A stretch of 64,000 nt of DNA, from the NCBI GenBank assembly GCA_028554795.2, contig CM068839.1:87813540-87877539 (forward strand), read 5' to 3'. Position numbers and translations under genes: made by a program. Under the pieces are notes generated by a model. The model made no database searches and was not told the DNA's origin. It saw only the letters and a program-made list of their open reading frames with translations. Positions 1 through 64,000 of this stretch are shown one piece after another. Position 1 is the stretch's first letter. The number at the start of each line of letters is the position of its first letter. Source of the DNA: Sinohyriopsis cumingii. Its lineage: Eukaryota > Mollusca > Bivalvia > Unionida > Unionidae.

Positions 1-610
1 TATAATCCTTATTACTGCAGCATATATACTTGTTAATTATTCTGACCAAGCATTATGCTATGAGAATTGCATTGCATAAATGGAAATATATTGTACTGCA
101 AACCCACTTCCTCACATCCGACCCTGTTATCTGTTCAATGAATGTATTCTACAAGTATGCTCAGTGGCATGAATATGTGTTTTCTCTGAAATGTTTCAAA
201 CTTAATGCAAAATAATGGTGAAAGACAAACGTTAATTCAAATAAAGCATCACACACATACACACGAATGCAACAAGTGTATACAGACAGGATGTCTTTCT
301 TTGTCATACTATTTACACCGATAAATCAACAATAACTACTTAAAAGTGTTTTATTCAATTTTTAAATTCGGAAAAATGTGAGAAATAGAATAAAACTCAA
401 GAAATATTTATTTGTTGGTATTCCGCAGCGTGACAAATGGAACGTAACGCTCAGTGTAATTTCGACAATTTAGAACAAATGTTCATAACCGACAAAAAGA
501 TTTCAAAGAAACTATATATGTAATCTTTACTGGTTCGATCTACAAGTAAATAGCTGCAGGATTCAGCTAATGGTGTACATTTCAAAAGGGAAATGGGATG
601 AAATTGTCTC

Positions 611-1007
611 GAAGTAATTGTAACCAAAGTGTACTAAAAGATTACATAGCTCGCCTCTTTGAAGTAATTATAAACAATGTAATAAACGAGTATGTATCTC
701 AACAATTTGATGTAATTGTAACCAGAGTACTAAAGCCGAGTAAATATCTCAACTCGTTGAAGCAACTGTATAACTGTAACAAGAGTAATAAATGAGTATA
801 TATCTCAACTCTCTGAAGTAATTGTAACCAAAGTACAATAAATGATTACATAGCTCATCTCTTAGAGGTAATTGTAACTAGTCTAATAAACTATTACATA
901 TCTCAGCTCTTCCAAGCAATTGTAAACAAAATGTAATAAATAACAGCTTAGATGACCTCTTCGATGCATTTAATAGTCTTCAGTTTACATAATAAAACTA
1001 ATTATCA
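611..1007 (+). repeat. Degenerate ~50-bp tandem repeat block inside monomer A
   Basis: Seven diverged units can be read: 611-660 (50 bp), 661-708 (48), 709-758 (50), 759-814 (56), 815-864 (50), 865-913 (49) and 914-962 (49). A weaker eighth lies at 963-1007. Each begins with gaagtaattgtaacc or a close form, has a middle rich in taataaa, and ends with a ctcatctctt-like motif. The unit length is not a multiple of three, which argues against a protein repeat. The same block lies about 610 bp after the start of every A, C/A and C monomer, and about 415 bp after the start of every B or B/C monomer. Confidence 0.88.
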
Positions 1008-1587
1008 TGCAGGTCAAAGGTCTTGGTGAGGTCGATGAACATCATGTAGAGTGGTTGACCTTGCTCTGTGTTCTTCTCTTGGAGTTGTCGTATGGAAAAT
1101 ATCCTGTCTGTCGTCGACCTGCCTGCATTAAAGCCGCACTGGGATTCCAGGTGCACACTGTCCGCCAGCAACTGCAGCCTGTTGAATATAATGCGGGCAT
1201 ACACGTTGCCAACGATGCTCAGAAGCGAGATCAAGCGAGATCCCTCTGTAATTATTACAGTCACTGAGGTCGCCATTGTTTTTGTAAACGGTATCTCGCG
1301 CATGTCTTGGGGATCCGCTCCTTCCTCCCAGCAGAGACAAAGTAGCTCATGCAGTGGCTGAAGCAATGTTTGTTTCTCACGTTCGATAGCTTCGGGCGGG
1401 ATGATGTCACTACCTGGTGCTTTGTCGTTTGGGAGGGAGTCAATTGCTTTGCTGAGCTCCTCTAAGGTGGGCACTTTGTCGAGCTCATCCATGGTTAGCA
1501 GTTTTTATGCTGCTAGGGGCCGCATCGGTGACTGACATTTCTTGGGAGTATAGCTCTAGGTAGTGTTCCACCCATCTGGCCATCTGT
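1008..1587 (-). mobile_element. LINE reverse-transcriptase fragment, A type (reference)
   Basis: An open minus-strand frame at 998-1492 encodes 164 aa. It begins MDELDKVPTLEELSKAIDS and contains KAPGSD (~25-30), LLSIVGNVYARIIFNRLQ, ESQCGFNAGRSTTD and FIDLTKTFD near the C end. These match the N-terminal RT blocks of endonuclease-bearing LINEs, through motif A with its catalytic Asp. The frame then ends in LHDN-stop, so motif B, the FADD-type motif C and the rest are absent. A 10-bp tandem duplication (aagcgagatc twice, ~1226-1245) together with a 1-bp loss keeps the frame open, but residues between CWEEGADPQDMRE and SLLSIVG are translated out of the ancestral frame. Positions 1493-1587 hold upstream LINE sequence (QMARWVEH region) in another frame. 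The LINE clade is not resolved. Confidence 0.9.
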
Positions 1588-2002
1588 CATACTTAATGCA
1601 AAATAATGGTGAAAGACAAACGTTAATTCAAATAAAGCATCGCACACATACACACGAATGCAACAAGTGTATACAGACATGATGTCTTCCGTCGTCATAC
1701 TATATACACCGGCTAATCAACAATAACTACTTAAAAGTGTTTAATTCAATTTTTAAATTCACAAAAAATGTGAGAAATACAATAAAACTCAAGAAATCTT
1801 TATTTGTTGGTATTCCGCAGCGTAACAAATGGAACGTAACGCCCAGTGTAATTTCGACAATTTAGAACAAATCTTCATATGCGACAAAAAGATTTCAAAG
1901 AAACTATATATGTAATCTTTACTGGTTCGATCTACAAGTAAATAACTCCAGGATTCAGTTTATGGTGTACATTTCAAAAGGGAAATGGGATGAAATTATC
2001 TC

Positions 2003-2400
2003 GAAGTAATTGTAAGCAAAGTGTACTAAAAGATTACATAGCTCGCCTCTTTGAAGTAATTATAAACAATGTAATAAACGAGTATGTATCTCAACTATTT
2101 GATGTCATTGAAACCAGAGTATTAAAGCCGAGTAAATATCTCAACTCGTTGAAGTAACTGTATAACTGTAAAAAGAGTAATAAATAAGTATATATCTCAA
2201 TTCTCTGAAGTAATTGTAACCAAAATACAATAAATGATTACATAGCACATCTCTTCAAGGTAATTGTAACTAGTCTAATAAACTATTACATATCTCAGCT
2301 CTTCCAAGCAATTGTTAACAAAATGTAATAAATAACAGCTTAGATGACCTCTTCGATGCATTTAATAGTCTTCAGTTTACATAATAAAAACTAATTATCA
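2003..2400 (+). repeat. Degenerate ~50-bp tandem repeat block inside monomer B
   Basis: This is the same repeat family as at 611-1007, with B-specific substitutions such as gtaagcaaagtg and gtaactgtataactgtaaa. Seven recognisable units plus a weak last one run up to the LINE boundary. Confidence 0.85.
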
Positions 2401-3390
2401 TGCAGGTCAATGGTCTTGGTGAGTTCAATGAACATCATGTAGAGTGGTTGACCTTGCTCTGTGTTCTTCTCTTGGAGTTGTCGTATGGAAAAGATCATGT
2501 CTGTCGTCGACCTGCCTGCTTTAAAGCCGCACTGGGATTCCAGGTGCACATGGTCCACCAGCAACTGCAGCCTGTTGAGTATAATGCGGGAATACACTTT
2601 GCCAACGATGCTCAGAAGCGAGATCCCTCTGTAATTATTACAGTTACTGAGGTCGCCATTGTTTTTGTAAACGGTATCTCGCGCATATCTTGGAGGACCG
2701 CTCCTTTCCTCCCAGCAGAGACAAAGTAGCTCATGCAGCAGCTGAAGCAATGTTGGTTTCCCACGTTCGATAGCTTTGGGCGGGATGCTGTCACTACATG
2801 GTGCTTTGTCGTTTGGGGCGGAGTCGATTGCTTTGTTGAGCTCCTCTAAGGTGGGCACTTTGTCGAGCTCCTCTATGGTGGGCAGTTTTTATGCTGTTAG
2901 GGCTGCATCGGTGACTGACATTTCTTGGGAGCATAGCTCTGAGTAGTGTTCCACCCATCTGGCCATCTGTTGCTCGCAGTCAGTGATCTCCTCTCCCGTC
3001 AGAGATTTCTGGCGGACGATCCCTTTCACCATAGGGCCTAGAGCCTTCTTGATATCACAGTACATACCTTGGATGTTTCCGGATTCGGCACTGCGCTGGA
3101 GTCCTTCACATAGTTGTTACCAGTACTCGTTCGCGCACTGTCTAGCGATGTGTTGGGTGTTGCTTCGAGCGCTTCTGACATCAGCAAGCATCCGTTCATT
3201 AGGGCATTTTTTGTAAGCTTTGAAGGCTTTTCATTTGTCTTCGATTATTGGTTCTATCCTTGATAGATGTGCGCTGAACTAGTGCCAAACGTGGCCATGG
3301 CTGTGCTGTAGATGACACCCTTCATGGCGCTCCACATGACTGTGGCATCGTGATCTGGCAGGTCTTGGAGTGCCTGGTCCAGGGCTAGTA
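2401..3390 (-). mobile_element. LINE fragment (pre-RT linker to RT motif A), B type (reference)
   Basis: An open minus frame at 2391-2858 (155 aa) begins MPTLEELNKAIDS and carries YKNNGDLSNCNNYRGISLL, KVYSRIILNRLQ, QCGFKAGRSTTD and FIELTKTID. The last motif has Glu where the catalytic motif-A Asp should be. Further upstream on the minus strand, LDQALQDLPDHDA and similar pieces (within 3254-3463) match the linker between endonuclease and RT of such LINEs. Type B lacks 22 bp present in type C (joint near 3283) and has a six-T run where C has seven (near 3207-3212), so it is the more decayed lineage. Neither the 5' endonuclease nor the 3' half of RT is present. Confidence 0.88.
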
Positions 3391-4401
3391 TGAGAATACA
3401 AGAGTATATCACAATTATGCTCATGCAGCTCTGAGATTTTTTCAGAGACGTACGAAAATTCAATCAAAATCCAATTAAACATTTTATAATTTCATTTGTA
3501 TTAAATGTTCTAATTCGAGGTTATTAAAAGCTTATTACATGAATAAACTGCACAATTTTGCAGGTGCCACATTTTACTTAAATAAAAACAGACACCATGA
3601 AAAAGGAAAAATCAGCCAAATATATTCATATATTACCAAAACATAATGCAAATAGACTTTTTTTATATAAATTATTACAAAAAGTGCACATGTAAGATTT
3701 ATAAATTCTTTGGTTGATCTTTTTTATTCTGGCTGTGTCATACAGGAAATGTTTTTTAAACTAAACAGGCATTAGATATTGAAAATCAATTATAATCCTT
3801 ATTATTGCAGCATATATACTTGTCAATTATTCTGGCCAAGCATTATGCTATAAGAATTGCATTGCATAAATGGAAATATATTGTACTGCAAACCCACTTC
3901 CTCACATCCGACCCTGTTATCTGTTCAATGAATGTATTCTACAAGTATCCTCAATGGCATGAATATCGGTTTTCTTTGACATGTTTCAAACTTAATGCAA
4001 AATAATGGTGAAAGACAAACGTTAATTCAAATAAAGCATCACACACATACACACGAATGCAACAAGTGTATACAGACATGATGTCTTCCTTCGTCATTCT
4101 ATATACACCGGCTGATCAACAATAACTACTTAAAAGTGTTTTATTCAATTGTTAAATTTGTAAAACATTTGAGAAATACAATAACACCCAAGAAATTTGT
4201 ATTTGTTGGTATTCCACAGCGTGACAAATGGAACGTAATTCCCAGTGTAATTTCGACAATTTAGAACAAATCTTCATAACCAACAACAAGATTTCAAAGA
4301 AACTATATATGTAATCTTTACTGGTTCGATCTACAAGTAAATAGCTGCAGGATTCAGTTAATGGTGTACATTTCAAAAGGGAAATGGCATGAGAATGTCT
4401 C

Positions 4402-4743
4402 GAAGTAATTGCAACCAAAGTGTACTAAAAGATCACATAGCTCGCCTCTTTGAAGTAATTCTAAACAATGTAATAAACAAGTACGTATCTCAACTATTTG
4501 ATGTCATTGAAACCAGAGTACTAAAGCCGAGTAAATATCTCAACTCGGTGAAGTAATTGTAACCAAAGTACAATAAATGATTACATAGCTCATCTCTTCA
4601 AGGTAATGGTAACTAGTCTAATAAACTATTACATATCTCAGCTCTTCCAAGCAATTGTAAACAAAATGTAATAAATAACAGCTTAGATCACCTCTACGAT
4701 GCATTTAATAGTCTTCAATTTACATAATAAAAACTAATTATCA
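4402..4743 (+). repeat. ~50-bp repeat block in C copy 1, one unit short
   Basis: This matches the block at 10539-10936 but jumps from ctcggtgaagtaa straight into ttgtaaccaaag. It therefore lacks the 56-bp unit equivalent to 759-814. The loss is exactly one repeat unit, as expected for slippage or exchange between neighbouring units. Confidence 0.85.
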
Positions 4744-5757
4744 TGCAGGTCAAAGGTCTTGGTGATTTCGATGAACATCATGTAGAGTGGTTGACCTTGC
4801 TCTGTGTTCTTCTCTTGGAGTTGTCGTATGAAAAAATCCTGTCTGTCGTCGACCTGCCTGCTTTAAAGCCGCACTGGGATTCCAGGTGCACACGGTCCGC
4901 CAGCAACTGCAGCCTGTTGAGTATAATGCGGGCATACACTTTGCCAACGATGCTCAGAAGCGAGATCCCTCTGTAGTTATTACAGTCACTGAGGTCGCCA
5001 TTGTTTTTGTAAACGGTATCTCGCGCATATCTTGGGGGACCGCTCCTTTCCTTCCAGCAGAGACAAAGTAGCTCATGCAGCGGCTGAAGCAATGTTGGTT
5101 TCCCACGTTCTATAGCTTTGGGCGGGATGCTGTCACTACCTGGTGCTTTGTCGTTTGGGTGGGAGTCGATTGCTTTGCTGAGCTCCTCTAAGGTGGGCAC
5201 TTTGTCGAGCTCATCCATGGTGGGCAGTTTTTATGCTGCTAGGGGCCGCATCGGTGACTAGCATATCCTGGGAGTATAGCTCTGAGTAGTGTTCCACCCA
5301 TCTGGCCATCTGTTGCTCACAGTCAGTGATCTCCTCTCCCCTCAGAGATTTCCGGGGAACGGCCCCTTTCACCGTAGGGCCTAGAGCCTTCTTGATACCA
5401 CAATACATACCTTGGATGTTTCCGGACTCGGCACTGTGCTGGAGTCCTTCACATAGTTGTTACCAGTACTCGTTCGCGCACTGTCTAGCGATTGTGTTGG
5501 GTGTTGCTTCGAGCACTTCTGAGATCAGCAAGCGTCCGTCCATTAAGGCATTTTTTTGTAACGTTTGAAGGCTTTTCGTTTGTCTTCGATGATTGGTTCC
5601 ATCCTTGATAGATGTGCGTTGAACCAGTCCTGGCTGGGCCGTTCCTTTTTGCCAAACATGGCCATGGCTGTGCTGTAGATTGCACCCTTCATGGCGTTCC
5701 ACATGGCTGTGGCATCGTGGTCTGGCAGGTCCTGGAGTGTCTGGTCCAGGGCTAGTA
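4744..5757 (-). mobile_element. LINE fragment, C type, copy 1
   Basis: Minus-strand RT frame at 4778-5218 (146 aa) starts MDELDKVPTLEELSKAIDS and includes NNYRGISLL and QCGFKAGRSTTDRIFS. It then leaves frame because this copy has lost one G (gtatgaaaaaatc instead of gtatggaaaaaatc, near 4828). Upstream pieces are at 5211-5408 (MYCGIKKALGPTVKGAVPR through the QQMARWVEHYSELYSQ block) and 5543-5779 (LQDLPDHDATAMW through KKERPSQDWFNAHLSRMEP). These are consecutive parts of the LINE pre-RT linker, separated by frameshifts and one stop. Confidence 0.88.
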
Positions 5758-6137
5758 TGACAATACAAGAGTATATCACAATTCTACTAGTACAGCTCTG
5801 GGATTATTTCAGAGACGTACGACCATTCAATCAAAATGCAATTAAACATTTTATAATTTGATTGGTATTGAATGTTCTAGTTCGAGGTTATCAAAAGCAA
5901 ATTACATGAAAGAACTGCACAATTCTGCAGGTGCCACATTTTACTTATATAAACACATGTACCATGGAAAAGGAAAAAAATAGCCAAATAGATTCATATA
6001 TTACCAAAACATAATGCAAATAGACTTTTTTTAAATATAAATTATTACAAAAAGTGCACGTGTAAGATTTATAAATTCTTTGATTGATCTTTTTTATTCT
6101 GGCTGTGTCATACAGCAGTTGGATATTTAAAATCAGT

Positions 6138-7724
6138 TATAATCCTTATTACTGCAGCATATATACTTGTTAATTATTCTGACCAAGCATTATGCTATGA
6201 GAATTGCATTGCATAAATGGAAATATATTGTACTGCAAACCCACTTCCTCACATCCGACCCTGTTATCTGTTCAATGAATGTATTCTACAAGTATGCTCA
6301 GTGGCATGAATATGTGTTTTCTCTGAAATGTTTCAAACTTAATGCAAAATAATGGTGAAAGACAAACGTTAATTCAAATAAAGCATCACACACATACACA
6401 CGAATGCAACAAGTGTATACAGACAGGATGTCTTTCTTTGTCATACTATTTACACCGATAAATCAACAATAACTACTTAAAAGTGTTTTATTCAATTTTT
6501 AAATTCGGAAAAATGTGAGAAATAGAATAAAACTCAAGAAATATTTATTTGTTGGTATTCCGCAGCGTGACAAATGGAACGTAACGCTCAGTGTAATTTC
6601 GACAATTTAGAACAAATGTTCATAACCGACAAAAAGATTTTAAAGAAACTATATATGTAATCTTTACTGGTTCGATCTACAAGTAAATAGCTGCAGGATT
6701 CAGCTAATGGTGTACATTTCAAAAGGGAAATGGGATGAAATTGTCTCGAAGTAATTGTAACCAAAGTGTACTAAAAGATTACATAGCTCGCCTCTTTGAA
6801 GTAATTATAAACAATGTAATAAACGAGTATGTATCTCAACAATTTGATGTAATTGTAACCAGAGTACTAAAGCCGAGTAAATATCTCAACTCGTTGAAGC
6901 AACTGTATAACTGTAACAAGAGTAATAAATGAGTATATATCTCAACTCTCTGAAGTAATTGTAACCAAAGTACAATAAATGATTACATAGCTCATCTCTT
7001 AGAGGTAATTGTAACTAGTCTAATAAACTATTACATATCTCAGCTCTTCCAAGCAATTGTAAACAAAATGTAATAAATAACAGCTTAGATGACCTCTTCG
7101 ATGCATTTAATAGTCTTCAGTTTACATAATAAAACTAATTATCATGCAGGTCAAAGGTCTTGGTGAGGTCGATGAACATCATGTAGATTGGTTGACCTTG
7201 CTCTGTGTTCTTCTCTTGGAGTTGTCGTATGGAAAATATCCTGTCTGTCGTCGACCTGCCTGCATTAAAGCCGCACTGGGATTCCAGGTGCACACTGTCC
7301 GCCAGCAACTGCAGCCTGTTGAATATAATGCGGGCATACACGTTGCCAACGATGCTCAGAAGCGAGATCAAGCGAGATCCCTCTGTAATTATTACAGTCA
7401 CTGAGGTCGCCATTGTTTTTGTAAACGGTATCTCGCGCATGTCTTGGGGATCCGCTCCTTCCTCCCAGCAGAGACAAAGTAGCTCATGCAGTGGCTGAAG
7501 CAATGTTTGTTTCTCACGTTCGATAGCTTCGGGCGGGATGATGTCACTACCTGGTGCTTTGTCGTTTGGGAGGGAGTCAATTGCTTTGCTGAGCTCCTCT
7601 AAGGTGGGCACTTTGTTGAGCTCGTCCATGGTTAGCAGTTTTTATGCTGCTAGGGGCCGCATCGGTGACTGACATTTCTTGGGAGTATAGCTCTAGGTAG
7701 TGTTCCACCCATCTGGCCATCTGT
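6138..7724 (+). repeat. Monomer A, copy 2
   Basis: Same layout as copy 1 (offset 6137). Private changes include gattttaaagaaac near 6640 and gtagattggttg near 7185. Near 7612 it reads ttgttgagctcgtcc, as in most A copies. Confidence 0.93.
7145..7724 (-). mobile_element. LINE RT fragment, A type, copy 2
   Basis: Open frame at 7135-7629, 164 aa, starting MDELNKVPTLEELSKAIDS. Motif A is intact (FIDLTKTFD), with one private substitution upstream (GQPIYMMF). Confidence 0.9.
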
Positions 7725-9927
7725 CATACTTAATGCAAAATAATGGTGAAAGACAAACGTTAATTCAAATAAAGCATCGCACACATACACACGAATGCAA
7801 CAAGTGTATACAGACATGATGTCTTCCGTCGTCATACTATATACACCGGCTAATCAACAATAACTACTTAAAAGTGTTTAATTCAATTTTTAAATTCACA
7901 AAAAATGTGAGAAATACAATAAAACTCAAGAAATCTTTATTTGTTGGTATTCCGCAGCGTAACAAATGGAACGTAACGCCCAGTGTAATTTCGACAATTT
8001 AGAACAAATCTTCATATGCGACAAAAAGATTTCAAAGAAACTATATATGTAATCTTTACTGGTTCGATCTACAAGTAAATAACTCCAGGATTCAGTTTAT
8101 GGTGTACATTTCAAAAGGGAAATGGGATGAAATTATCTCGAAGTAATTGTAAGCAAAGTGTACTAAAAGATTACATAGCTCGCCTCTTTGAAGTAATTAT
8201 AAACAATGTAATAAACGAGTATGTATCTCAACTATTTGATGTAATTGAAACCAGAGTATTAAAGCCGAGTAAATATCTCAACTCGTTGAAGTAACTGTAT
8301 AACTGTAAAAAGAGTAATAAATAAGTATATATCTCAATTCTCTGAAGTAATTGTAACCAAAATACAATAAATGATTACATAGCTCATCTCTTCAAGGTAA
8401 TTGTAACTAGTCTAATAAACTATTACATATCTCAGCTCTTCCAAGCAATTGTTAACAAAATCTAATAAATAACAGCTTAGATGACCTCTTCGATGCATTT
8501 AATAGTCTTCAGTTTACATAATAAAAACTAATTATCATGCAGGTCAATGGTCTTGGTGAGTTCAATGAACATCATGTAGAGTGGTTGACCTTGCTCTGTG
8601 TTCTTCTCTTGGAGTTGTCGTATGGAAAAGATCATGTCTGTCGTCGACCTGCCTGCTTTAAAGCCGCACTGGGATTCCAGGTGCACATGGTCCACCAGCA
8701 ACTGCAGCCTGTTGAGTATAATGCGGGAATACACTTTGCCAACGATGCTCAGAAGCGAGATCCCTCTGTAATTATTACAGTTACTGAGGTCGCCATTGTT
8801 TTTGTAAACGGTATCTCGCGCATGTCTTGGAGGACCGCTCCTTTCCTCCCAGCAGAGACAAAGTAGCTCATGCAGCAGCTGAAGCAATGTTGGTTTCCCA
8901 CGTTCGATAGCTTTGGGCGGGATGCTGTCACTACATTGTGCTTTGTCGTTTGGGGCGGAGTCGATTGCTTTGTTGAGCTCCTCTAAGGTGGGCACTTTGT
9001 GGAGCTCCTCTATGGTGGGCAGTTTTTATGCTGTTAGGGCTGCATCGGTGACTGACATTTCTTGGGAGCATAGCTCTGAGTAGTGTTCCACCCATCTGGC
9101 CATCTGTTGCTCGCAGTCAGTGATCTCCTCTCCCGTCAGAGATTTCTGGCGGACGATCCCTTTCACCATAGGGCCTAGAGCCTTCTTGATATCACAGTAC
9201 ATACCTTGGATGTTTCCGGATTCGGCACTGCGCTGGAGTCCTTCACATAGTTGTTACCAGTACTCGTTCGCGCACTGTCTAGCGATGTGTTGGGTGTTGC
9301 TTCGAGCGCTTCTGAGATCAGCAAGCATCCGTTCATTAGGGCATTTTTTGTAAGCTTTGAAGGCTTTTCATTTGTCTTCGATTATTGGTTCTATCCTTGA
9401 TAGATGTGCGCTGAACTAGTGCCAAACGTGGCCATGGCTGTGCTGTAGATGACACCCTTCATGGCGCTCCACATGACTGTGGCATCGTGATCTGGCAGGT
9501 CTTGGAGTGCCTGGTCCAGGGCTAGTATGAGAATACAAGAGTATATCACAATTATGCTCATGCAGCTCTGAGATTTTTTCAGAGACGTACGAAAATTCAA
9601 TCAAAATCCAATTAAACATTTTATAATTTCATTTGTATTAAATGTTCTAATTCGAGGTTATTAAAAGCTTATTACATGAATAAACTGCACAATTTTGCAG
9701 GTGCCACATTTTACTTAAATAAAAACAGACACCATGAAAAAGGAAAAATCAGCCAAATATATTCATATATTACCAAAACATAATGCAAATAGAATTTTTT
9801 TATATAAATTATTACAAAAAGTGCACATGTAAGATTTATAAATTCTTTGGTTGATCTTTTTTATTCTGGCTGTGTCATACAGGAAATGTTTTTTAAACTA
9901 AACAGGCATTGGATATTGAAAATCAAT
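7725..9927 (+). repeat. Monomer B, copy 2
   Basis: Complete B with B-type tail (aactaaacaggcattggat). It differs from copy 1 by scattered substitutions, for example tacattgtgc in the LINE near 8933 and gtggagctcc near 9000. Confidence 0.92.
8538..9527 (-). mobile_element. LINE fragment, B type, copy 2
   Basis: Open frame at 8528-8995, 155 aa, with KAQCSDSIPP replacing the usual KAPGSDSIPP and FIELTKTID at motif A. It has the 22-bp loss of type B in the linker part. Confidence 0.88.
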
Positions 9928-10538
9928 TATAATCCTTATTATTGCAGCATATATACTTGTCAATTATTCTGGCCAAGCATTATGCTATAAGAATTGCATT
10001 GCATAAATGGAAATATATTGTACTGCAAACCCACTTCCTCACATCCGACCATGTTATCTGTTCAATGAATGTATTCTACAAGTATCCTCAATGGCATGAA
10101 TATCGGTTTTCTTTGACATGTTTCAAACTTAATGCAAAATAACGGTGAAAGACAAACGTTAATTCAAATAAAGCATCACACACATACACACGAATGCAAC
10201 AAGTGTATACAGACATGATGTCTTCCTTCGTCATACTATATACACCGGCTGATCAACAATAACTACTTAAAAGTGTTTTATTCAATTGTTAAATTTGTAA
10301 AACATTTGAGAAATACAATAAAACCCAAGAAATTTGTATTTGTTGGTATTCCACAGCGTGACAAATGGAACGTAATTCCCAGTGTAATTTCGACAATTTA
10401 GAACAAATCTTCATAACCAACAAAAAGATTTCAAAGAAACTATATATGTAATCTTTACTGGTTCGATCTACAAGTAAATAGCTGCAGGATTCAGTTAATG
10501 GTGTACATTTCAAAAGGGAAATGGGATGAAAATGTCTC

Positions 10539-10936
10539 GAAGTAATTGCAACCAAAGTGTACTAAAAGATCACATAGCTCGCCTCTTTGAAGTAATTCTA
10601 AACAATGTAATAAACAAGTACGTATCTCAACTATTTGATGTCATTGAAACCAGAGTACTAAAGCCGAGTAAATATCTCAACTCGGTGAAGTAACTGTATA
10701 ACTGTAACAAGAGTAATAAATGAGTATATATCTCAACTCTATGAAGTAATTGTAACCAAAGTACAATAAATGATTACATAGCTCATCTCTTCAAGGTAAT
10801 GGTAACTAGTCTAATAAACTATTACATATCTCAGCTCTTCCAAGCAATTGTAAACAAAATGTAATAAATAACAGCTTAGATCACCTCTACGATGCATTTA
10901 ATAGTCTTCAATTTACATAATAAAAACTAATTATCA
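10539..10936 (+). repeat. Complete ~50-bp repeat block in C copy 2
   Basis: All seven units and the weak eighth are present. C-specific forms include gcaaccaaagtg, agatcacatagc and ctcaactctatgaag. Confidence 0.86.
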
Positions 10937-11951
10937 TGCAGGTCAAAGGTCTTGGTGATTTCGATGAACATCATGTAGAGTGGTTGACCTTGCTCTGTGT
11001 TCTTCTCTTGGAGTTGTCGTATGGAAAAAATCCTGTCTGTCGTCGACCTGCCTGCTTTAAAGCCGCACTGGGATTCCAGGTGCACACGGTCCGCCAGCAA
11101 CTGCAGCCTGTTGAGTATAATGCGGGCATACACTTTGCCAACGATGCTCAGAAGCGAGATCCCTCTGTAGTTATTACAGTCACTGAGGTCGCCATTGTTT
11201 TTGTAAACGGTATCTCGCGCATATCTTGGGGGACCGCTCCTTTCCTTCCAGCAGAGACAAAGTAGCTCATGCAGCGGCTGAAGCAATGTTGGTTTCCCAC
11301 GTTCTATAGCTTTGGGCGGGATGCTGTCACTACCTGGTGCTTTGTCGTTTGGGTCGGAGTCGATTGCTTTGCTGAGCTCCTCTAAGGTGGGCACTTTGTC
11401 GAGCTCATCCATGGTGGGCAGTTTTTATGCTGCTAGGGGCCGCATCGGTGACTAGCATATCCTGGGAGTATAGCTCTGAGTAGTGTTCCACCCATCTGGC
11501 CATCTGTTGCTCACAGTCAGTGATCTCCTCTCCCCTCAGAGATTTCCGGGGAACGGCCCCTTTCACCGTAGGGCCTAGAGCCTTCTTGATACCACAGTAC
11601 ATACCTTGGATGTTTCCGGACTCGGCACTGTGCTGGAGTCCTTCACATAGTTGTTACCAGTACTCGTTCGCGCACTGTCTAGCGATTGTGTTGGGTGTTG
11701 CTTCGAGCACTTCTGAGATCAGCAAGCGTCCGTCCATTAAGGCATTTTTTTGTAACGTTTGAAGGCTTTTCGTTTGTCTTCGATTATTGGTTCCATCCTT
11801 GATAGATGTGCGTTGAACCAGTCCTGGCTAGGCCGTTCCTTTTTGCCAAACATGGCCATGGCTGTGCTGTAGATTGCACCCTTCATGGCGTTCCACATGG
11901 CTGTGGCATCGTGGTCTGGCAGGTCCTGGAGTGTCTGGTCCAGGGCTAGTA
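10937..11951 (-). mobile_element. LINE fragment (pre-RT linker to RT motif A), C type (reference)
   Basis: Minus-strand frame at 10927-11412 (161 aa) reads MDELDKVPTLEELSKAIDS, KAPGSDSIPPKAIERGKP, LLQPLHELLCLCW, YKNNGDLSDCNNYRGISLL, KVYARIILNRLQLLADRV, ESQCGFKAGRSTTD and FIEITKTFD. The order matches RT blocks from the fingers to motif A. The motif-A Asp is Glu here. Upstream, 11405-11602 (65 aa) carries GIKKALGPTVKGAVPRK and the QQMARWVEH block in a second frame. 11737-11973 (78 aa) carries LQDLPDHDATAMW and ERPSQDWFNAHLSRMEP in the first frame. One frameshift sits at the seven-T run near 11745-11751, a stop separates ANEYW from the QLCEGL-like stretch near 11654, and a second frameshift lies near 11405-11420. 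This is a dead internal piece of a LINE ORF2-like gene. Confidence 0.9.
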
Positions 11952-12331
11952 TGACAATACAAGAGTATATCACAATTCTACTAGTCCAGCTCTGGGATTA
12001 TTTCAGAGACGTACGACCATTCAATCAAAATGCAATTAAACATTTTATAATTTGATTGGTATTGAATGTTCTAGTTCGAGGTTATCAAAAGCAAATTACA
12101 TGAAAGAACTGCACAATTCTGCAGGTGCCACATTTTACTTATATAAACACATGTACCATGGAAAAGGAAAAAAATAGCCAAATAGATTCATATATTACCA
12201 AAACATAATGCAAATAGACTTTTTTTAAATATAAATTATTACAAAAAGTGCACGTGTAAGATTTATAAATTCTTTGATTGATCTTTTTTATTCTGGCTGT
12301 GTCATACAGCAGTTGGATATTTAAAATCAGT

Positions 12332-52672: not shown

Positions 52673-54259
52673 TATAATCCTTATTACTGCAGCATATATA
52701 CTTGTTAATTATTCTGACCAAGCATTATGCTATGAGAATTGCATTGCATAAATGGAAATATATTGTACTGCAAACCCACTTCCTCACATCCGACCCTGTT
52801 ATCTGTTCAATGAATGTATTCTACAAGTATGCTCAGTGGCATGAATATGTGTTTTCTCTGAAATGTTTCAAACTTAATGCAAAATAATGGTGAAAGACAA
52901 ACGTTAATTCAAATAAAGCATCACACACATACACACGAATGCAACAAGTGTATACAGACAGGATGTCTTTCTTTGTCATACTATTTACACCGATAAATCA
53001 ACAATAACTACTTAAAAGTGTTTTATTCAATTTTTAAATTCGGAAAAATGTGAGAAATACAATAAAACTCAAGAAATATTTATTTGTTGGTATTCCGCAG
53101 CGTGACAAATGGAACGTAACGCTCAGTGTAATTTCGACAATTTAGAACAAATGTTCATAACCGACAAAAAGATTTCAAAGAAACTATATATGTAATCTTT
53201 ACTGGTTCGATCTACAAGTAAATAGCTGCAGGATTCAGCTAATGGTGTACATTTCAAAAGGGAAATGGGATGAAATTGTCTCGAAGTAATTGTAACCAAA
53301 GCGTACTAAAAGATTACATAGCTCGCCTCTTTGAAGTAATTATAAACAATGTAATAAACGAGTATGTATCTCAACAATTTGATGTAATTGTAACCAGAGT
53401 ACTAAAGCCGAGTAAATATCTCAACTCGTTGAAGCAACTGTATAACTGTAACAAGAGTAATAAATGAGTATATATCTCAACTCTCTGAAGTAATTGTAAC
53501 CAAAGTACAATAAATGATTACATAGCTCATCTCTTAGATGTAATTGTAACTAGTCTAATAAACTATTACATATCTCAGCTCTTCCAAGCAATTGTAAACA
53601 AAATGTAATAAATAACAGCTTAGATGACCTCTTCGATGCATTTAATAGTCTTCAGTTTACATAATAAAACTAATTATCATGCAGGTCAAAGGTCTTGGTG
53701 AGGTCGATGAACATCATGTAGAGTGGTTGACCTTGCTCTGTGTTCTTCTCTTGGAGTTGTCGTATGGAAAATATCCTGTCTGTCGTCGACCTGCCTGCAT
53801 TAAAGCCGCACTGGGATTCCAGGTGCACACTGTCCGCCAGCAACTGCAGCCTGTTGAATATAATGCGGGCATACACGTTGCCAACGATGCTCAGAAGCGA
53901 GATCAAGCGAGATCCCTCTGTAATTATTACAGTCACTGAGGTCGCCATTGTTTTTGTAAACGGTATCTCGCGCATGTCTTGGGGATCCGCTCCTTCCTCC
54001 CAGCAGAGACAAAGTAGCTCATGCAGTGGCTGAAGCAATGTTTGTTTCTCACGTTCGATAGCTTCGGGCGGGATGATGTCACTACCTGGTGCTTTGTCGT
54101 TTGGGAGGGAGTCAATTGCTTTGCTGAGCTCCTCTAAGGTGGGCACTTTGTTGAGCTCGTCCATGGTTAGCAGTTTTTATGCTGCTAGGGGCCGCATCGG
54201 TGACTGACATTTCTTGGGAGTATAGCTCTAGGTAGTGTTCCACCCATCTGGCCATCTGT
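52673..54259 (+). repeat. Monomer A, copy 14
   Basis: Shares caaagcgtac (near 53296) with copies 15 and 16, and cttagatgtaattg (near 53533) with copy 15. Confidence 0.93.
53680..54259 (-). mobile_element. LINE RT fragment, A type, copy 14
   Basis: Open frame at 53670-54164, 164 aa, typical A form. Confidence 0.9.
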
Positions 54260-56466
54260 CATACTTAATGCAAAATAATGGTGAAAGACAAACGTTAATT
54301 CAAATAAAGCATCGCACACATACACACGAATGCAACAAGTGTATACATACATGATGTCTTCCGTCGTCATACTATATACACCGGCTAATCAACAATAACT
54401 ACTTAAAAGTGTTTAATTCAATTTTTAAATTCACAAAAAATGTGAGAAATACAATAAAACTCAAGAAATCTTAATTTGTTGGTATTCCGCAGCGTAACAA
54501 ATGGAACGTAACGCCCAGTGTAATTTCGACAATTTAGAACAAATCTTCATATGCGACAAAAAGATTTCAAAGAAACTATATATGTAATCTTTACTGGTTC
54601 GATCTACAAGTAAATAACTCCAGGATTCAGTTTATGGTGTACATTTCAAAAGGAAATGGGATGAAATTATCTCGAAGTAATTGTAAGCAAAGTGTACTAA
54701 AAGATTACATAGCTCGCCTCTTTGAAGTAATTATAAACAATGTAATAAACGAGTATGTATCTCAACTATTTGATGTAATTGAAACCAGAGTATTAAAGCC
54801 GAGTAAATATCTCAACTCGTTGAAGTAACTGTATAACTGTAAAAAGAGTAATAAATAAGTATATATCTCAATTCTCTGAAGTAATTGTAACCAAAATACA
54901 ATGAATGATTACATAGCTCATCTCTTCAAGGTAATTGTAACTAGTCTAATAAACTATTACATATCTCAGCTATTCCAAGCAATTGTAAACAAAATGTAAT
55001 AAATAACAGCTTAGATGACCTCTTCGATGCATTTAATAGTCTTCAGTTTACATAATAAAAACTAATTATCATGCAGGTCAATGGTCTTGGTGAGTTCAAT
55101 GAACATCATGTAGAGTGGTCGACCTTGCTCTGTGTTCTTCTCTTGGAGCTGTCGTATGGAAAAGATCATGTCTGTCGTCGACCTGCCTGCTTTAAAGCCG
55201 CACTGGGATTCCAGGTGCACACGGTCCGCCAGCAACTGCAGCCTGTTGAGTATAATGCGGTCATACACTTTGCCAACGATGCTCAGAAGCGAGATCCCTC
55301 TGTAGTTATTACAGTCACTGAGGTCGCCATTGTTTTTGTAAACGGTATCTCGCGCATATCTTGGGGGACCGCTCCTTTCCTTCCAGCAGAGACAAAGTAG
55401 CTCATGCAGCGGCTGAAGCAATGTTGGTTTCCCACGTTCTATAGCTTTGGGCGGGATGCTGTCACTACCTGGTGCTTTGTCGTTTGGGTGGGAGTCGATT
55501 GCTTTGCTGAGCTCCTCTAAGGTGGGCACTTCGTCGAGCTCATCCATGGTGGGCAGTTTTTATGCTGCTAGGGGCCGCATCGGTGACTAGCATATCCTGG
55601 GAGTATAGCTCTGAGTAGTGTTCCACCCATCTGGCCATCTGTTGCTCACAGTCAGTGATCTCCTCTCCCCTCAGAGATTTCCGGGGAACGGCCCCTTTCA
55701 CCCTAGGGCCTAGAGCCTTCTTGATACCACAGTACATACCTTGGATGTTTCCGGACTCGGCAGTGTGCTGGAGTCCTTCACATAGTTGTTACCAGTACTC
55801 ATTCGCGCACTGTCTAGCGATTGTGTTGGGTGTTGCTTCGAGCACTTCTGAGATCAGCAAGCGTCCGTCCATTAAGGCATTTTTTTGTAACGTTTGAAGG
55901 CTTTTCGTTTGTCTTCGATTATTGGTTCCATCCTTGATAGATGTGCGTTGAACCAGTCCTGGCTGGGCCGTTCCTTTTTGCCAAACATGGCCATGGCTGT
56001 GCTGTAGATTGCACCCTTCATGGCGTTCCACATGGCTGTGGCATCGTGGTCTGGCAGGTCCTGGAGTGTCTGGTCCAGGGCTAGTATGACAATACAAGAG
56101 TATATCACAATTCTACTAGTACAGCTCTGGGATTGTTTCAGAGACGTACGACCATTCAATCAAAATGCAATTAAACATTTTATAATTTGATTGGTATTGA
56201 ATGTTCTAGTTCGAGGTTATCAAAAGCAAATTACATGAAAGAACTGCACAATTCTGCAGGTGCCACATTTTACTTATATAAACACATGTACCATGGAAAA
56301 GGAAAAAAATAGCCAAATAGATTCATATATTACCAAAACATAATGCAAATAGACTTTTTTTAAATATAAATTATTACAAAAAGTGCACGTGTAAGATTTA
56401 TAAATTCTTTGATTGATCTTTTTTATTCTGGCTGTGTCATACAGCAGTTGGATATTTAAAATCAGT
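54260..56466 (+). repeat. B/C hybrid monomer, type I exchange (copy 14)
   Basis: Exchange tract about 55170-55221. Shares aatcttaatttg, a one-G loss in ttcaaaaggaaatggg and accctagggcc with copies 15 and 16. Private gtggtcgacc and gcggtcatac. Confidence 0.9.
55072..56086 (-). mobile_element. LINE fragment, B/C type I hybrid (copy 14)
   Basis: Open frame at 55062-55547, 161 aa, starting MDELDEVPTLEELSKAIDS, with private KVYDRIILNRLQ and EQGRPLYMMF. Linker frame at 55540-55737 has GPRVKGAVPRK, shared with copies 15 and 16. Confidence 0.89.
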
Positions 56467-58053
56467 TATAATCCTTATTACTGCAGCATATATACTTGTT
56501 AATTATTCTGACCAAGCATTATGCTATGAGAATTGCATTGCATAAATGGAAATATATTGTACTGCAAACCCACTTCCTCACATCCGACCCTGTTATCTGC
56601 TCAATGAATGTATTCTACAAGTATGCTCAGTGGCATGAATATGTGTTTTCTCTGAAATGTTTCAAACTTAATGCAAAATAATGGTGAAAGACAAACGTTA
56701 ATTCAAATAAAGCATCACACACATACACACGAATGCAACAAGTGTATACAGACAGGATGTCTTTCTTTGTCATACTATTTACACCGATAAATCAACAATA
56801 ACTACTTAAAAGTGTTTTATTCAATTTTTAAATTCGGAAAAATGTGAGAAATACAATAAAACTCAAGAAATATTTATTTGTTGGTATTCCGCAGCGTGAC
56901 AAATGGAACGTAACGCTCAGTGTAATTTCGACAATTTAGAACAAATGTTCATAACCGACAAAAAGATTTCAAAGAAACTATATATGTAATCTTTACTGGT
57001 TCGATCTACAAGTAAATAGCTGCAGGATTCAGCTAATGGTGTACATTTCAAAAGGGAAATGGGATGAAATTGTCTCGAAGTAATTGTAACCAAAGCGTAC
57101 TAAAAGATTACATAGCTCGCCTCTTTGAAGTAATTATAAACAATGTAATAAACGAGTATGTATCTCAACAATTTGATGTAATTGTAACCAGAGTACTAAA
57201 GCCGAGTAAATATCTCAACTCGTTGAAGCAACTGTATAACTGTAACAAGAGTAATAAATGAGTATATATCTCAACTCTCTGAAGTAATTGTAACCAAAGT
57301 ACAATAAATGATTACATAGCTCATCTCTTAGATGTAATTGTAACTAGTCTAATAAACTATTACATATCTCAGCTCTTCCAAGCAATTGTAAACAAAATGT
57401 AATAAATAACAGCTTAGATGACCTCTTCGATGCATTTAATAGTCTTCAGTTTACATAATAAAACTAATTATCATGCAGGTCAAAGGTCTTGGTGAGGTCG
57501 ATGAACATCATGTAGAGTGGTTGACCTTGCTCTGTGTTCTTCTCTTGGAGTTGTCGTATGGAAAATATCCTGTCTGTCGTCGACCTGCCTGCATTAAAGC
57601 CGCACTGGGATTCCAGGTGCACACTGTCCGCCAGCAACTGCAGCCTGTTGAATATAATGCGGGCATACACGTTGCCAACGATGCTCAGAAGCGAGATCAA
57701 GCGAGATCCCTCTGTAATTATTACAGTCACTGAGGTCGCCATTGTTTTTGTAAACGGTATCTCGCGCATGTCTTGGGGATCCGCTCCTTCCTCCCAGCAG
57801 AGACAAAGTAGCTCATGCAGTGGCTGAAGCAATGTTTGTTTCTCACGTTCGATAGCTTCGGGCGGGATGATGTCACTACCTGGTGCTTTGTCGTTTGGGA
57901 GGGAGTCAATTGCTTTGCTGAGCTCCTCTAAGGTGGGCACTTTGTTGAGCTCGTCCATGGTTAGCAGTTTTTATGCTGCTAGGGGCCGCATCGGTGACTG
58001 ACATTTCTTGGGAGTATAGCTCTAGGTAGTGTTCCACCCATCTGGCCATCTGT
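56467..58053 (+). repeat. Monomer A, copy 15
   Basis: Shares atctgctcaatg (near 56597) with copy 16 and cttagatgtaattg with copy 14, so it is intermediate between its neighbours. Confidence 0.93.
57474..58053 (-). mobile_element. LINE RT fragment, A type, copy 15
   Basis: Open frame at 57464-57958, 164 aa, typical A form. Confidence 0.9.
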
Positions 58054-60260
58054 CATACTTAATGCAAAATAATGGTGAAAGACAAACGTTAATTCAAATA
58101 AAGCATCGCACACATACACACGAATGCAACAAGTGTATACATACATGATGTCTTCCGTCGTCATACTATATACACCGGCTAATCAACAATAACTACTTAA
58201 AAGTGTTTAATTCAATTTTTAAATTCACAAAAAATGTGAGAAATACAATAAAACTCAAGAAATCTTAATTTGTTGGTATTCCGCAGCGTAACAAATGGAA
58301 CGTAACGCCCAGTGTAATTTCGACAATTTAGAACAAATCTTCATATGCGACAAAAAGATTTCAAAGAAACTATATATGTAATCTTTACTGGTTCGATCTA
58401 CAAGTAAATAACTCCAGGATTCAGTTTATGGTGTACATTTCAAAAGGAAATGGGATGAAATTATCTCGAAGTAATTGTAAGCAAAGTGTACTAAAAGATT
58501 ACATAGCTCGCCTCTTTGAAGTAATTATAAACAATGTAATAAACGAGTATGTATCTCAACTATTTGATGTAATTGAAACCAGAGTATTAAAGCCGAGTAA
58601 ATATCTCAACTCGTTGAAGTAACTGTATAACTGTAAAAAGAGTAATAAATAAGTATATATCTCAATTCTGTGAAGTAATTGTAACCAAAATACAATGAAT
58701 GATTACATAGCTCATCTCTTCAAGGTAATTGTAACTAGTCTAATAAACTATTACATATCTCAGCTATTCCAAGCAATTGTAAACAAAATGTAATAAATAA
58801 CAGCTTAGATGACATCTTCGATGCATTTAATAGTCTTCAGTTTACATAATAAAAACTAATTATCATGCAGGTCAATGGTCTTGGTGAGTTCAATGAACAT
58901 CATGTAGAGTGGTTGACCTTGCTCTGTGTTCTTCTCTTGGAGCTGTCGTATGGAAAAGATCATGTCTGTCGTCGACCTGCCTGCTTTAAAGCCGCACTGG
59001 GATTCCAGGTGCACACGGTCCGCCAGCAACTGCAGCCTGTTGAGTATAATGCGGGCATACACTTTGCCAACGATGCTCAGAAGCGAGATCCCTCTGTAGT
59101 TGTTACAGTCACTGAGGTCGCCATTGTTTTTGTAAACGGTATCTCGCGCATATCTTGGGGGACCGCTCCTTTCCTTCCAGCAGAGACAAAGTAGCTCATG
59201 CAGCGGCTGAAGCAATGTTGGTTTCCCACGTTCTATAGCTTTGGGCGGGATGCTGTCACTACCTGGTGCTTTGTCGTTTGGGTGGGAGTCGATTGCTTTG
59301 CTGAGCTCCTCTAAGGTGGGCACTTCGTCGAGCTCATCCATGGTGGGCAGTTTTTATGCTGCTAGGGGCCGCATCGGTGACTAGCATATCCTGGGAGTAT
59401 AGCTCTGAGTAGTGTTCCACCCATCTGGCCATCTGTTGCTCACAGTCAGTGATCTCCTCTCCCCTCAGAGATTTCCGGGGAACGGCCCCTTTCACCCTAG
59501 GGCCTAGAGCCTTCTTGATACCACAGTACATACCTTGGATGTTTCCGGACTCGGCAGTGTGCTGGAGTCCTTCACATAGTTGTTACCAGTACTCATTCGC
59601 GCACTGTCTAGCGATTGTGTTGGGTGTTGCTTCGAGCACTTCTGAGATCAGCAAGCGTCCGTCCATTAAGGCATTTTTTTGTAACGTTTGAAGGCTTTTC
59701 GTTTGTCTTCGATTATTGGTTCCATCCTTGATAGATGTGCGTTGAACCAGTCCTGGCTGGGCCGTTCCTTTTTGCCAAACATGGCCATGGCTGTGCTGTA
59801 GATTGCACCCTTCATGGCGTTCCACATGGCTGTGGCATCGTGGTCTGGCAGGTCCTGGAGTGTCTGGTCCAGGGCTAGTATGACAATACAAGAGTATATC
59901 ACAATTCTACTAGTACAGCTCTGGGATTGTTTCAGAGACGTACGACCATTCAATCAAAATGCAATTAAACATTTTATAATTTGATTGGTATTGAATGTTC
60001 TAGTTCGAGGTTATCAAAAGCAAATTACATGAAAGAACTGCACAATTCTGCAGGTGCCACATTTTACTTATATAAACACATGTACCATGGAAAAGGAAAA
60101 AAATAGCCAAATAGATTCATATATTACCAAAACATAATGCAAATAGACTTTTTTTAAATATAAATTATTACAAAAAGTGCACGTGTAAGATTTATAAATT
60201 CTTTGATTGATCTTTTTTATTCTGGCTGTGTCATACAGCAGTTGGATATTTAAAATCAGT
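58054..60260 (+). repeat. B/C hybrid monomer, type I exchange (copy 15)
   Basis: Exchange tract about 58964-59014. Shares ttctgtgaag and gatgacatcttcg with copy 16, not 14. Private gtagttgttac near 59096. Confidence 0.9.
58866..59880 (-). mobile_element. LINE fragment, B/C type I hybrid (copy 15)
   Basis: Open frame at 58856-59341, 161 aa (MDELDEVPTLEEL, FIELTKTID). Linker frames at 59334-59531 and 59666-59953. Confidence 0.89.
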
Positions 60261-61847
60261 TATAATCCTTATTACTGCAGCATATATACTTGTTAATTAT
60301 TCTGACCAAGCATTATGCTATGAGAATTGCATTGCATAAATGGAAATATATTGTACTGCAAACCCACTTCCTCACATCCGACCCTGTTATCTGCTCAATG
60401 AATGTATTCTACAAGTATGCTCAGTGGCATGAATATGTGTTTTCTCTGAAATGTTTCAAACTTAATGCAAAATAATGGTGAAAGACAAACGTTAATTCAA
60501 ATAAAGCATCACACACATACACACGAATGCAACAAGTGTATACAGACAGGATGTCTTTCTTTGTCATACTATTTACACCGATAAATCAACAATAACTTCT
60601 TAAAAGTGTTTTATTCAATTTTTAAATTCGGAAAAATGTGAGAAATACAATAAAACTCAAGAAATATTTATTTGTTGGTATTCCGCAGCGTGACAAATGG
60701 AACGTAACGCTCAGTGTAATTTCGACAATTTAGAACAAATGTTCATAACCGACAAAAAGATTTCAAAGAAACTATATATGTAATCTTTACTGGTTCGATC
60801 TACAAGTAAATAGCTGCAGGATTCAGCTAATGGTGTACATTTCAAAAGGGAAATGGGATGAAATTGTCTCGAAGTAATTGTAACCAAAGCGTACTAAAAG
60901 ATTACATAGCTCGCCTCTTTGAAGTAATTATAAACAATGTAATAAACGAGTATGTATCTCAACAATTTGATGTAATTGTAACCAGAGTACTAAAGCCGAG
61001 TAAATATCTCAACTCGTTGAAGCAACTGTATAACTGTAACAAGAGTAATAAATGAGTATATATCTCAACTCTCTGAAGTAATTGTAACCAAAGTACAATA
61101 AATGATTACATAGCTCATCTCTTAGAGGTAATTGTAACTAGTCTAATAAACTATTACATATCTCAGCTCTTCCAAGCAATTGTAAACAAAATGTAATAAA
61201 TAACAGCTTAGATGACCTCTTCGATGCATTTAATAGTCTTCAGTTTACATAATAAAACTAATTATCATGCAGGTCAAAGGTCTTGGTGAGGTCGATGAAC
61301 ATCATGTAGAGTGGTTGACCTTGCTCTGTGTTCTTCTCTTGGAGTTGTCGTATGGAAAATATCCTGTCTGTCGTCGACCTGCCTGCATTAAAGCCGCACT
61401 GGGATTCCAGGTGCACACTGTCCGCCAGCAACTGCAGCCTGTTGAATATAATGCGGGCATACACGTTGCCAACGATGCTCAGAAGCGAGATCAAGCGAGA
61501 TCCCTCTGTAATTATTACAGTCACTGAGGTCGCCATTGTTTTTGTAAACGGTATCTCGCGCATGTCTTGGGGATCCGCTCCTTCCTCCCAGCAGAGACAA
61601 AGTAGCTCATGCAGTGGCTGAAGCAATGTTTGTTTCTCACGTTCGATAGCTTCGGGCGGGATGATGTCACTACCTGGTGCTTTGTCGTTTGGGAGGGAGT
61701 CAATTGCTTTGCTGAGCTCCTCTAAGGTGGGCACTTTGTTGAGCTCGTCCATGGTTAGCAGTTTTTATGCTGCTAGGGGCCGCATCGGTGACTGACATTT
61801 CTTGGGAGTATAGCTCTAGGTAGTGTTCCACCCATCTGGCCATCTGT
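60261..61847 (+). repeat. Monomer A, copy 16
   Basis: Shares atctgctcaatg with copy 15. Private aataacttcttaaaag near 60592. Has the common cttagaggtaattg, unlike copies 14 and 15. Confidence 0.93.
61268..61847 (-). mobile_element. LINE RT fragment, A type, copy 16
   Basis: Open frame at 61258-61752, 164 aa, typical A form. Confidence 0.9.
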
Positions 61848-64000
61848 CATACTTAATGCAAAATAATGGTGAAAGACAAACGTTAATTCAAATAAAGCAT
61901 CGCACACATACACACGAATGCAACAAGTGTATACAGACAGGATGTCTTCCGTCGTCATACTATATACACCGGCTAATCAACAATAACTACTTAAAAGTGT
62001 TTAATTCAATTTTTAAATTCACAAAAAATGTGAGAAATACAATAAAACTCAAGAAATCTTAATTTGTTGGTATTCCGCAGCGTAACAAATGGAACGTAAC
62101 GCCCAGTGTAATTTCGACAATTTAGAACAAATCTTCATATGCGACAAAAAGATTTCAAAGAAACTATATATGTAATCTTTACTGGTTCGATCTACAAGTA
62201 AATAACTCCAGGATTCAGTTTATGGTGTACATTTCAAAAGGAAATGGGATGAAATTATCTCGAAGTAATTGTAAGCAAAGTGTACTAAAAGATTACATAG
62301 CTCGCCTCTTTGAAGTAATTATAAACAATGTAATAAACGAGTATGTATCTCAACTATTTGATGTAATTGAAACCAGAGTATTAAAGCCGAGTAAATATCT
62401 CAACTCGTTGAAGTAACTGTATAACTGTAAAAAGAGTAATAAATAAGTATATATCTCAATTCTGTGAAGTAATTGTAACCAAAATACAATGAATGATTAC
62501 ATAGCTCATCTCTTCAAGGTAATTGTAACTAGTCTAATAAACTATTACATATCTCAGCTATTCCAAGCAATTGTAAACAAAATGTAATAAATAACAGCTT
62601 AGATGACATCTTCGATGCATTTAATAGTCTTCAGTTTACATAATAAAAACTAATTATCATGCAGGTCAATGGTCTTGGTGAGTTCAATGAACATCATGTA
62701 GAGTGGTTGACCTTGCTCTGTGTTCTTCTCTTGGAGCTGTCGTATGGAAAAGATCATGTCTGTCGTCGACCTGCCTGCTTTAAAGCCGCACTGGGATTCC
62801 AGGTGCACACGGTCCGCCAGCAACTGCAGCCTGTTGAGTATAATGCGGGCATACACTTTGCCAACGATGCTCAGAAGCGAGATCCCTCTGTAGTTATTAC
62901 AGTCACTGAGGTCGCCATTGTTTTTGTAAACGGTATCTCGCGCATATCTTGGGGGACCGCTCCTTTCCTTCCAGCAGAGACAAAGTAGCTCATGCAGCGG
63001 CTGAAGCAATGTTGGTTTCCCACGTTCTATAGCTTTGGGCGGGATGCTGTCACTACCTGGTGCTTTGTCGTTTGGGTGGGAGTCGATTGCTTTGCTGAGC
63101 TCCTCTAAGGTGGGCACTTCGTCGAGCTCATCCATGGTGGGCAGTTTTTATGCTGCTAGGGGCCGCATCGGTGACTAGCATATCCTGGGAGTATAGCTCT
63201 GAGTAGTGTTCCACCCATCTGGCCATCTGTTGCTCACAGTCAGTGATCTCCTCTCCCCTCAGAGATTTCCGGGGAACGGCCCCTTTCACCCTAGGGCCTA
63301 GAGCCTTCTTGATACCACAGTACATACCTTGGATGTTTCCGGACTCGGCAGTGTGCTGGAGTCCTTCACATAGTTGTTACCAGTACTCATTCGCGCACTG
63401 TCTAGCGATTGTGTTGGGTGTTGCTTCGAGCACTTCTGAGATCAGCAAGCGTCCGTCCATTAAGGCATTTTTTTGTAACGTTTGAAGGCTTTTCGTTTGT
63501 CTTCGATTATTGGTTCCATCCTTGATAGATGTGCGTTGAACCAGTCCTGGCTGGGCCGTTCCTTTTTGCCAAACATGGCCATGGCTGTGCTGTAGATTGC
63601 ACCCTTCATGGCGTTCCACATGGCTGTGGCATCGTGGTCTGGCAGGTCCTGGAGTGTCTGGTCCAGGGCTAGTATGACAATACAAGAGTATATCACAATT
63701 CTACTAGTACAGCTCTGGGATTGTTTCAGAGACGTACGACCATTCAATCAAAATGCAATTAAACATTTTATAATTTGATTGGTATTGAATGTTCTAGTTC
63801 GAGGTTATCAAAAGCAAATTACATGAAAGAACTGCACAATTCTGCAGGTGCCACATTTTACTTATATAAACACATGTACCATGGAAAAGGAAAAAAATAG
63901 CCAAATAGATTCATATATTACCAAAACATAATGCAAATAGACTTTTTTTAAATATAAATTATTACAAAAAGTGCACGTGTAAGATTTATAAATTCTTTGA
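61848..64000 (+). repeat. B/C hybrid monomer, type I exchange (copy 16, cut by window end)
   Basis: Exchange tract about 62758-62808. Matches copy 15 closely. The window ends inside its C-type tail, about 50 bp short of the expected next monomer. Confidence 0.9.
62660..63674 (-). mobile_element. LINE fragment, B/C type I hybrid (copy 16)
   Basis: Open frame at 62650-63135, 161 aa. Linker frames at 63128-63325 and 63460-63747. I see no protein-level difference from copy 15 in the RT frame. Confidence 0.89.

Follow-up and report, generated by a model that had tools for sequence, protein, structure and literature searches.

A LINE-containing composite satellite with higher-order organisation and a readable crossover history

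What kind of DNA fills a 64,000-nucleotide stretch of contig CM068839.1 (positions 87,813,540 to 87,877,539 of the forward strand, referred to herein as the window), in which every repeat carries the same piece of a retrotransposon? We found that the window, 1..64000, is a single head-to-tail array of 33 monomers, all in the same orientation, which bases 1-198 precede as the end of one more long monomer, and that each monomer contains an internal piece of a reverse transcriptase (RT) gene from a long interspersed nuclear element (LINE). We interpret the array as a non-coding composite satellite, or macrosatellite, most likely belonging to a eukaryotic nuclear genome, as its LINE content and satellite structure suggest. 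It would behave like any ordinary satellite, with recombination causing its number of copies to drift, and we put the probability of this interpretation at roughly 85%.

The 20-mers that occur more than once make up 98.1% of the window, versus none in one base-shuffled copy. A 200-bp anchor taken from the AT-rich part of the repeat and a 401-bp RT anchor each gave 33 matches, in the same orientation throughout, and the monomers (M01 to M33), when cut at the first of these anchors, cover base 199 to 64000. These results bear out the original prediction that a LINE-containing macrosatellite of 33 co-oriented monomers fills the window. As a further long monomer is represented by its tail at bases 11-195, the array is open at both window ends, which had also been proposed. 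Two monomer sizes are present, 15 short (1391-1392 bp) and 18 long (2347-2405 bp, apart from M33, which is clipped by the window edge to 2151 bp). Among the spacings of repeated 20-mers, 3794-3796 bp is the commonest and 7587 bp the next, while spacings of 6137 and 6194 bp stem from short-long-long trimers. The usual unit is therefore a 3.79-kb short-long pair; the 6.2-kb unit that had been anticipated does exist, as a trimer at M01-M03, M04-M06 and M25-M27, but not as the general unit.

Sequence identity divides the long monomers into classes A (n = 6), B (n = 3) and C (n = 9), the last of two types, C1 and C2, and the short monomers into classes S and H. Along the array their order is S A B S A B S C1 S C2 S C1 S C2 S A H C2 S A H C2 S A H A B S C1 S C1 S C1. 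Two S-A-B trimers on the plus strand, as are all the blocks that follow, come first: M01-M03 (199..6335, 6137 bp), whose B copy, M03 (3989-6335), is 57 bp shorter than its class-mate M06, and M04-M06 (6336..12529, 6194 bp). They are followed by the S-C dimers of M07-M14, S C1 S C2 twice (12530..27710); by M15-M22, S A H C2 twice (27711..42883), where H denotes a short monomer whose 5' end is of B type; by M23-M27, S A H A B (42884..52870), in which M25-M27 form the third trimer with H at its head; and by three S-C1 dimers, M28-M33 (52871..64000), the last of them clipped by the window edge. The four-monomer blocks S C1 S C2 and S A H C2 are each 7.59 kb long and each occur twice. Diverged classes thus recur in a repeating order (S A B, S C1 S C2 and S A H C2 twice each, S C1 three times), as in a higher-order repeat, with no single fixed unit across the whole window.

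Members of any one class (S, A, B, C1, C2 or H) are 99.2-100% identical to each other, whereas identity between A, B and S is 93.1-94.7% (93.1-93.7% for A versus B). Within-class identity exceeding between-class identity is the pattern of homogenised copies, or concerted evolution, that characterises satellite DNA.

Class C, which accounts for nine of the 18 long monomers, is a chimaera with an A-like first part and a B-like remainder. This was assessed over 204 alignment columns in which the A and B consensus sequences differ, indel columns being counted singly, so that not all of the columns are independent. A single A-to-B switch accounts for each of the nine class C monomers, apart from 2-5 exceptions among 186-203 informative columns; M08 has 4 exceptions, whereas 1000 shuffles of its columns gave 54.4 on average and never fewer than 48, a control that treats columns as independent. 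The breakpoint lies at 907-962 in type C1 (M08, M12, M29, M31 and M33) and at 1285-1308 in type C2 (M10, M14, M18 and M22), where a mosaic stretch precedes the switch. M08 (13921..16324, plus strand), for example, is A-type to 908 and B-type from 962, and in M10 (17716..20120, plus strand), which has the second type of breakpoint, the best single switch is at 1285-1308 with the mosaic stretch before it. At five adjacent A/B columns, M03 matches neither class. Class H, three of the 15 short monomers (M17, M21 and M25), is a chimaera of B and the short monomer with a shared switch between 294 and 370; in M17 (31501..32892, plus strand) the sequence is B-type to 294 and S-type from 370. H is preceded by A in all three cases, as B is in the trimers, which fits a crossover of B with the next S.

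The short monomer corresponds to the long monomer minus ~1 kb; what it lacks is the AT-rich tail and, of the LINE piece, the linker half. A 19-mer across the deletion junction, located in M04 at 7718..7736 on the plus strand and spanning the end of the monomer as cut, occurs 15 times in the window, once per short monomer and always at its end, and the undeleted sequence occurs 18 times, the number of long monomers. By eye, there is little or no homology at the junction. One deletion followed by amplification would be the simplest account of the short monomers.

Near-identical blocks such as these could also be produced by misassembly, in which case the true array would be much shorter than it appears. 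M09 equals M13, M28 equals M30, and the longest exact repeat is 2389 bp (lags 1000-61999). Blocks M07-M10 and M11-M14, however, differ by 17 substitutions and one indel over ~7.6 kb, M29 and M31 differ by 5 substitutions, and the array shows an ordered arrangement of several classes and breakpoint types. We therefore consider inflation by misassembly highly improbable.

The LINE piece was recognised with a 962-codon frame at 341-3226 of contig JALZUO010000060.1 (L001), clipped by the contig end; the contig is filed under an Oligoflexales metagenome-assembled genome (MAG), and the frame carries Exo_endo_phos and RVT_1 domains. In tblastn searches the L001 frame matched the minus strand of 33/33 monomers, with best E values per monomer of 6e-30 to 1.7e-22, and matched 0/33 base-shuffled monomers at the same limit (1e-3), so the predicted minus-strand RT piece in each monomer is confirmed. 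L001 residues 512-785 align to class A positions 1590-796, which supports ~790 bp of the fragment; only base composition and an open frame place the remainder, class A positions ~1590 to 1826, in the LINE. In M06 the fragment spans ~1.02 kb from the endonuclease-RT linker to RT motif A (10930..11951, minus strand; coordinates converted from the consensus). A 165-codon open frame in the same monomer (10927..11424, minus strand) matches RVT_1 (PF00078) with an E value of 3.1e-9 over profile positions 5-80 of 205. Its best PDB matches are the RNA-directed DNA polymerase 8c8j (E 5.5e-6), LINE-1 ORF2p (E ~1e-5) and R2 (E 0.005), the scores favouring LINE-1 ORF2p over the R2 chains. The relationship to L001, with its Exo_endo_phos domain, suggests that the piece derives from a LINE of the apurinic/apyrimidinic endonuclease (APE) type. 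It is not a functional LINE: the RT profile is matched only to position 80 of 205, and stops or frame breaks lie upstream in A and B. We take the fragment to stop at RT motif A, ahead of the YxDD catalytic region, and no LINE end was recognised in the monomers.

Read from the anchor, the long monomer (represented by M06, class B, 10126..12529, plus strand, 2404 bp) consists of an AT-rich leader of ~400 bp, seven sub-repeats, a GC-richer LINE block that makes up ~43% of its length, and an AT-rich tail of ~570 bp; M04 (class S, 6336..7726, plus strand, 1391 bp) represents the short monomer. GC content is 0.49-0.51 in the LINE block versus 0.28-0.32 in the remaining three parts. The sub-repeats, ~48-56 bp each, lie at 10539..10890 on the plus strand of M06 (converted from 414-765 of the consensus, with the limit of the last sub-repeat placed by eye), and their order is identical in the A, B and S consensus sequences. 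The ratio of observed to expected CpG is uneven within one monomer, at 1.39 in the leader (1-380) and 0.45 in the tail (1841-2399) of the class A consensus; the class B values are 0.97 and 0.38.

Sub-repeats inside an AT-rich body resemble the central tandem arrays of Helitrons and Helentrons, as these are described in a review (PMC12628747). The monomer could on this basis be a mobile element, such as a non-autonomous Helitron or Helentron with a captured LINE piece, and the array a product of rolling-circle or tandem insertion instead of crossing-over. The likeness is that of short tandem repeats within a longer unit; no ends, hairpin or Rep/helicase of such elements were seen in the array, within a window that has no unique flanks. 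In M05, one long monomer, there are no long inverted repeats, only nine pairs of 14-27 nt that are 74-89% complementary. Of seven window or consensus frames compared with Pfam, none matched a transposase, Rep or helicase; any matches of the four consensus frames (two on the linker side of the LINE piece and two AT-rich) fell short of the curated cut-offs. The breakpoints of the chimaeras are internal to the monomer, which points to homologous exchange, and we regard a mobile-element origin as quite unlikely.

We favour a composite satellite because the LINE piece is present in 33/33 monomers, the class C chimaeras each fit one switch, class H has a common breakpoint, the deletion junction is the same in 15/15 short monomers, identities separate the classes, and coding constraint is not apparent. 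In the history that we propose, an ancestral long monomer would have duplicated and its copies diverged by ~6%, one copy would have lost ~1 kb to become the short monomer, and an S-A-B trimer (6.19 kb) would then have been amplified. Out-of-register crossing-over of A with B, one monomer out of step, would have generated class C and hence the shorter S-C dimer (3.79 kb), and crossing-over of B with the next S would have generated class H. These products would have spread, with some conversion, and segmental duplication together with conversion would hold the class copies at 99-100% identity. The 6.2-kb trimer thus probably gave rise to the 3.79-kb dimer by unequal crossing-over.

Several points weigh against this interpretation. 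The chimaeras and the deletion junction common to the short monomers are observed, whereas the order of events, with the trimer first, is a matter of parsimony. A reciprocal B/A product is absent among the 18 long monomers. The mosaic stretch of C2, and a few letters of the other class in some A and B monomers, do not fit crossing-over alone, and gene conversion must therefore have acted as well. Class S (12 monomers, H excluded; mean divergence 0.39%, maximum 0.79%) shows no significant increase of divergence with distance (Spearman 0.20, p 0.11). Finally, in 29/33 monomers the longest frame on the minus strand reaches 165 or 168 codons, and the 22 substitutions between the A and B consensus sequences of the 165-codon frame give little power against weak constraint.

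The open frames in these 29 monomers also favour a functional array, in which the RT fragment would encode a short protein, or the array would yield an RNA such as a PIWI-interacting RNA (piRNA) against the parent LINE, explaining the retention of the fragment in every monomer; a LINE piece on the minus strand could give antisense small RNA. The A/B substitutions are, however, neutral in pattern (dN 0.045 and dS 0.047, the nonsynonymous and synonymous divergence), with 16 amino-acid changes observed and 15.98 expected, and random substitution left the frame open in 49% of 5000 simulations. The longest frame is shorter in M03 (150 codons), M20, M22 and M24, and the termination of the fragment at motif A, before YxDD, as well as the sufficiency of tandem duplication to explain a LINE piece in every monomer, also argue against function. 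A coding role for the RT frame is unsupported, given the neutral substitution pattern. The window contains no tRNA genes and no Rfam matches at gathering scores. We consider a functional array very unlikely; with no sign of constraint in its sequence, the LINE piece appears to be an unconstrained passenger without protein function.

A further reading, which we hold to be unlikely, would make the array a young higher-order repeat with long units, centromeric or pericentromeric, and the captured LINE segment a recombination platform driving the change from 6.2 kb to 3.8 kb. It is suggested by the position of both A/B breakpoint types (907-962 and 1285-1308) inside the LINE segment. Since this segment is such a large part of the long monomer, the location of two of two breakpoints inside it counts for little, and the B/S breakpoint (294-370) is not within the segment. 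Alpha satellite consists of 171-bp monomers whose diverged classes form multi-monomer units with nearly identical copies, and whose units shift in length by out-of-register exchange. The array shares the diverged classes, the near-identical unit copies and, on our account, the out-of-register length change, and differs in having monomers of 1.4-2.4 kb, 2-4 per unit, and no exact CENP-B box (0 mismatches allowed) in 64 kb. The CENP-B box is dispensable in many taxa.

Sequence searches returned distant relatives of the LINE piece. Among GTDB contigs, 5 of 42 candidate loci were confirmed, 25-41% identical, and these are distant LINE relatives only. The L001 frame looks like an APE-type LINE and its contig like eukaryotic contamination of a bacterial bin. 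L002 (1035-1511), L003 (433-933) and L004 (2795-3304), in MAGs of Clostridia, Methanosphaera and Erysipelotrichaceae, respectively, carry RVT_1 with 25-34% identity to the LINE piece, and their contigs are perhaps contamination too. In the fifth locus (L005), from a Robiginitomaculum MAG, the match spans only 44 residues. No relative of the RT frame was found among viral contigs (5 pattern matches, 0 confirmed; no exact match to a 31-mer), and a 4803-bp stretch of M05-M06 had no match among phages or plasmids. A literature text search, whose scope excludes Repbase and Dfam, found no paper with this unit for three window stretches and none for the phrase 'LINE-derived satellite'.

Satellites of this sort had been called uncommon, but there is more precedent than that implied. 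One review (PMC9659126) describes a common cetacean satellite containing an L1 3' end, chicken HinfI/SCR1 with a CR1 3' untranslated region and partial ORF2, and L1 ORF2 pieces within Phodopus PROsat and Phoca Pvc20; the cetacean case is also tabulated in a second review (PMC6947457). According to PMC7004042, nine of 11 studied Lathyrus sativus satellites come from tandem repeats within long terminal repeat (LTR) retrotransposons. The array is a new case of the already known kind, LINE-containing satellites. As far as the descriptions in PMC9659126 allow comparison, it shares with the cetacean, chicken, Phodopus and Phoca satellites a monomer with a LINE part, sometimes a piece of ORF2, and differs in its internal piece with no 3' end seen, its 1.4/2.4-kb monomer, its own sub-repeats and its two-length higher-order organisation. 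The human macrosatellite DXZ4, with 3-kb units (PMC7767330), is alike in its kilobase-scale tandem unit; the present array is mostly AT-rich and carries a LINE piece.

The array is clearly resolved and of an ordinary kind: a higher-order satellite of composite make-up that contains a LINE piece and whose crossovers can still be read. Its value lies in being a legible record of change in a composite satellite with a transposon piece: 64 kb hold a single deletion, three classes of long monomer and as many as three products of crossing-over (C1, C2 and H). It offers a case on which to test whether higher-order units become shorter through unequal crossing-over, as one model has it, and, given its host and chromosomal site, the array could mark a centromere or a heterochromatin block.

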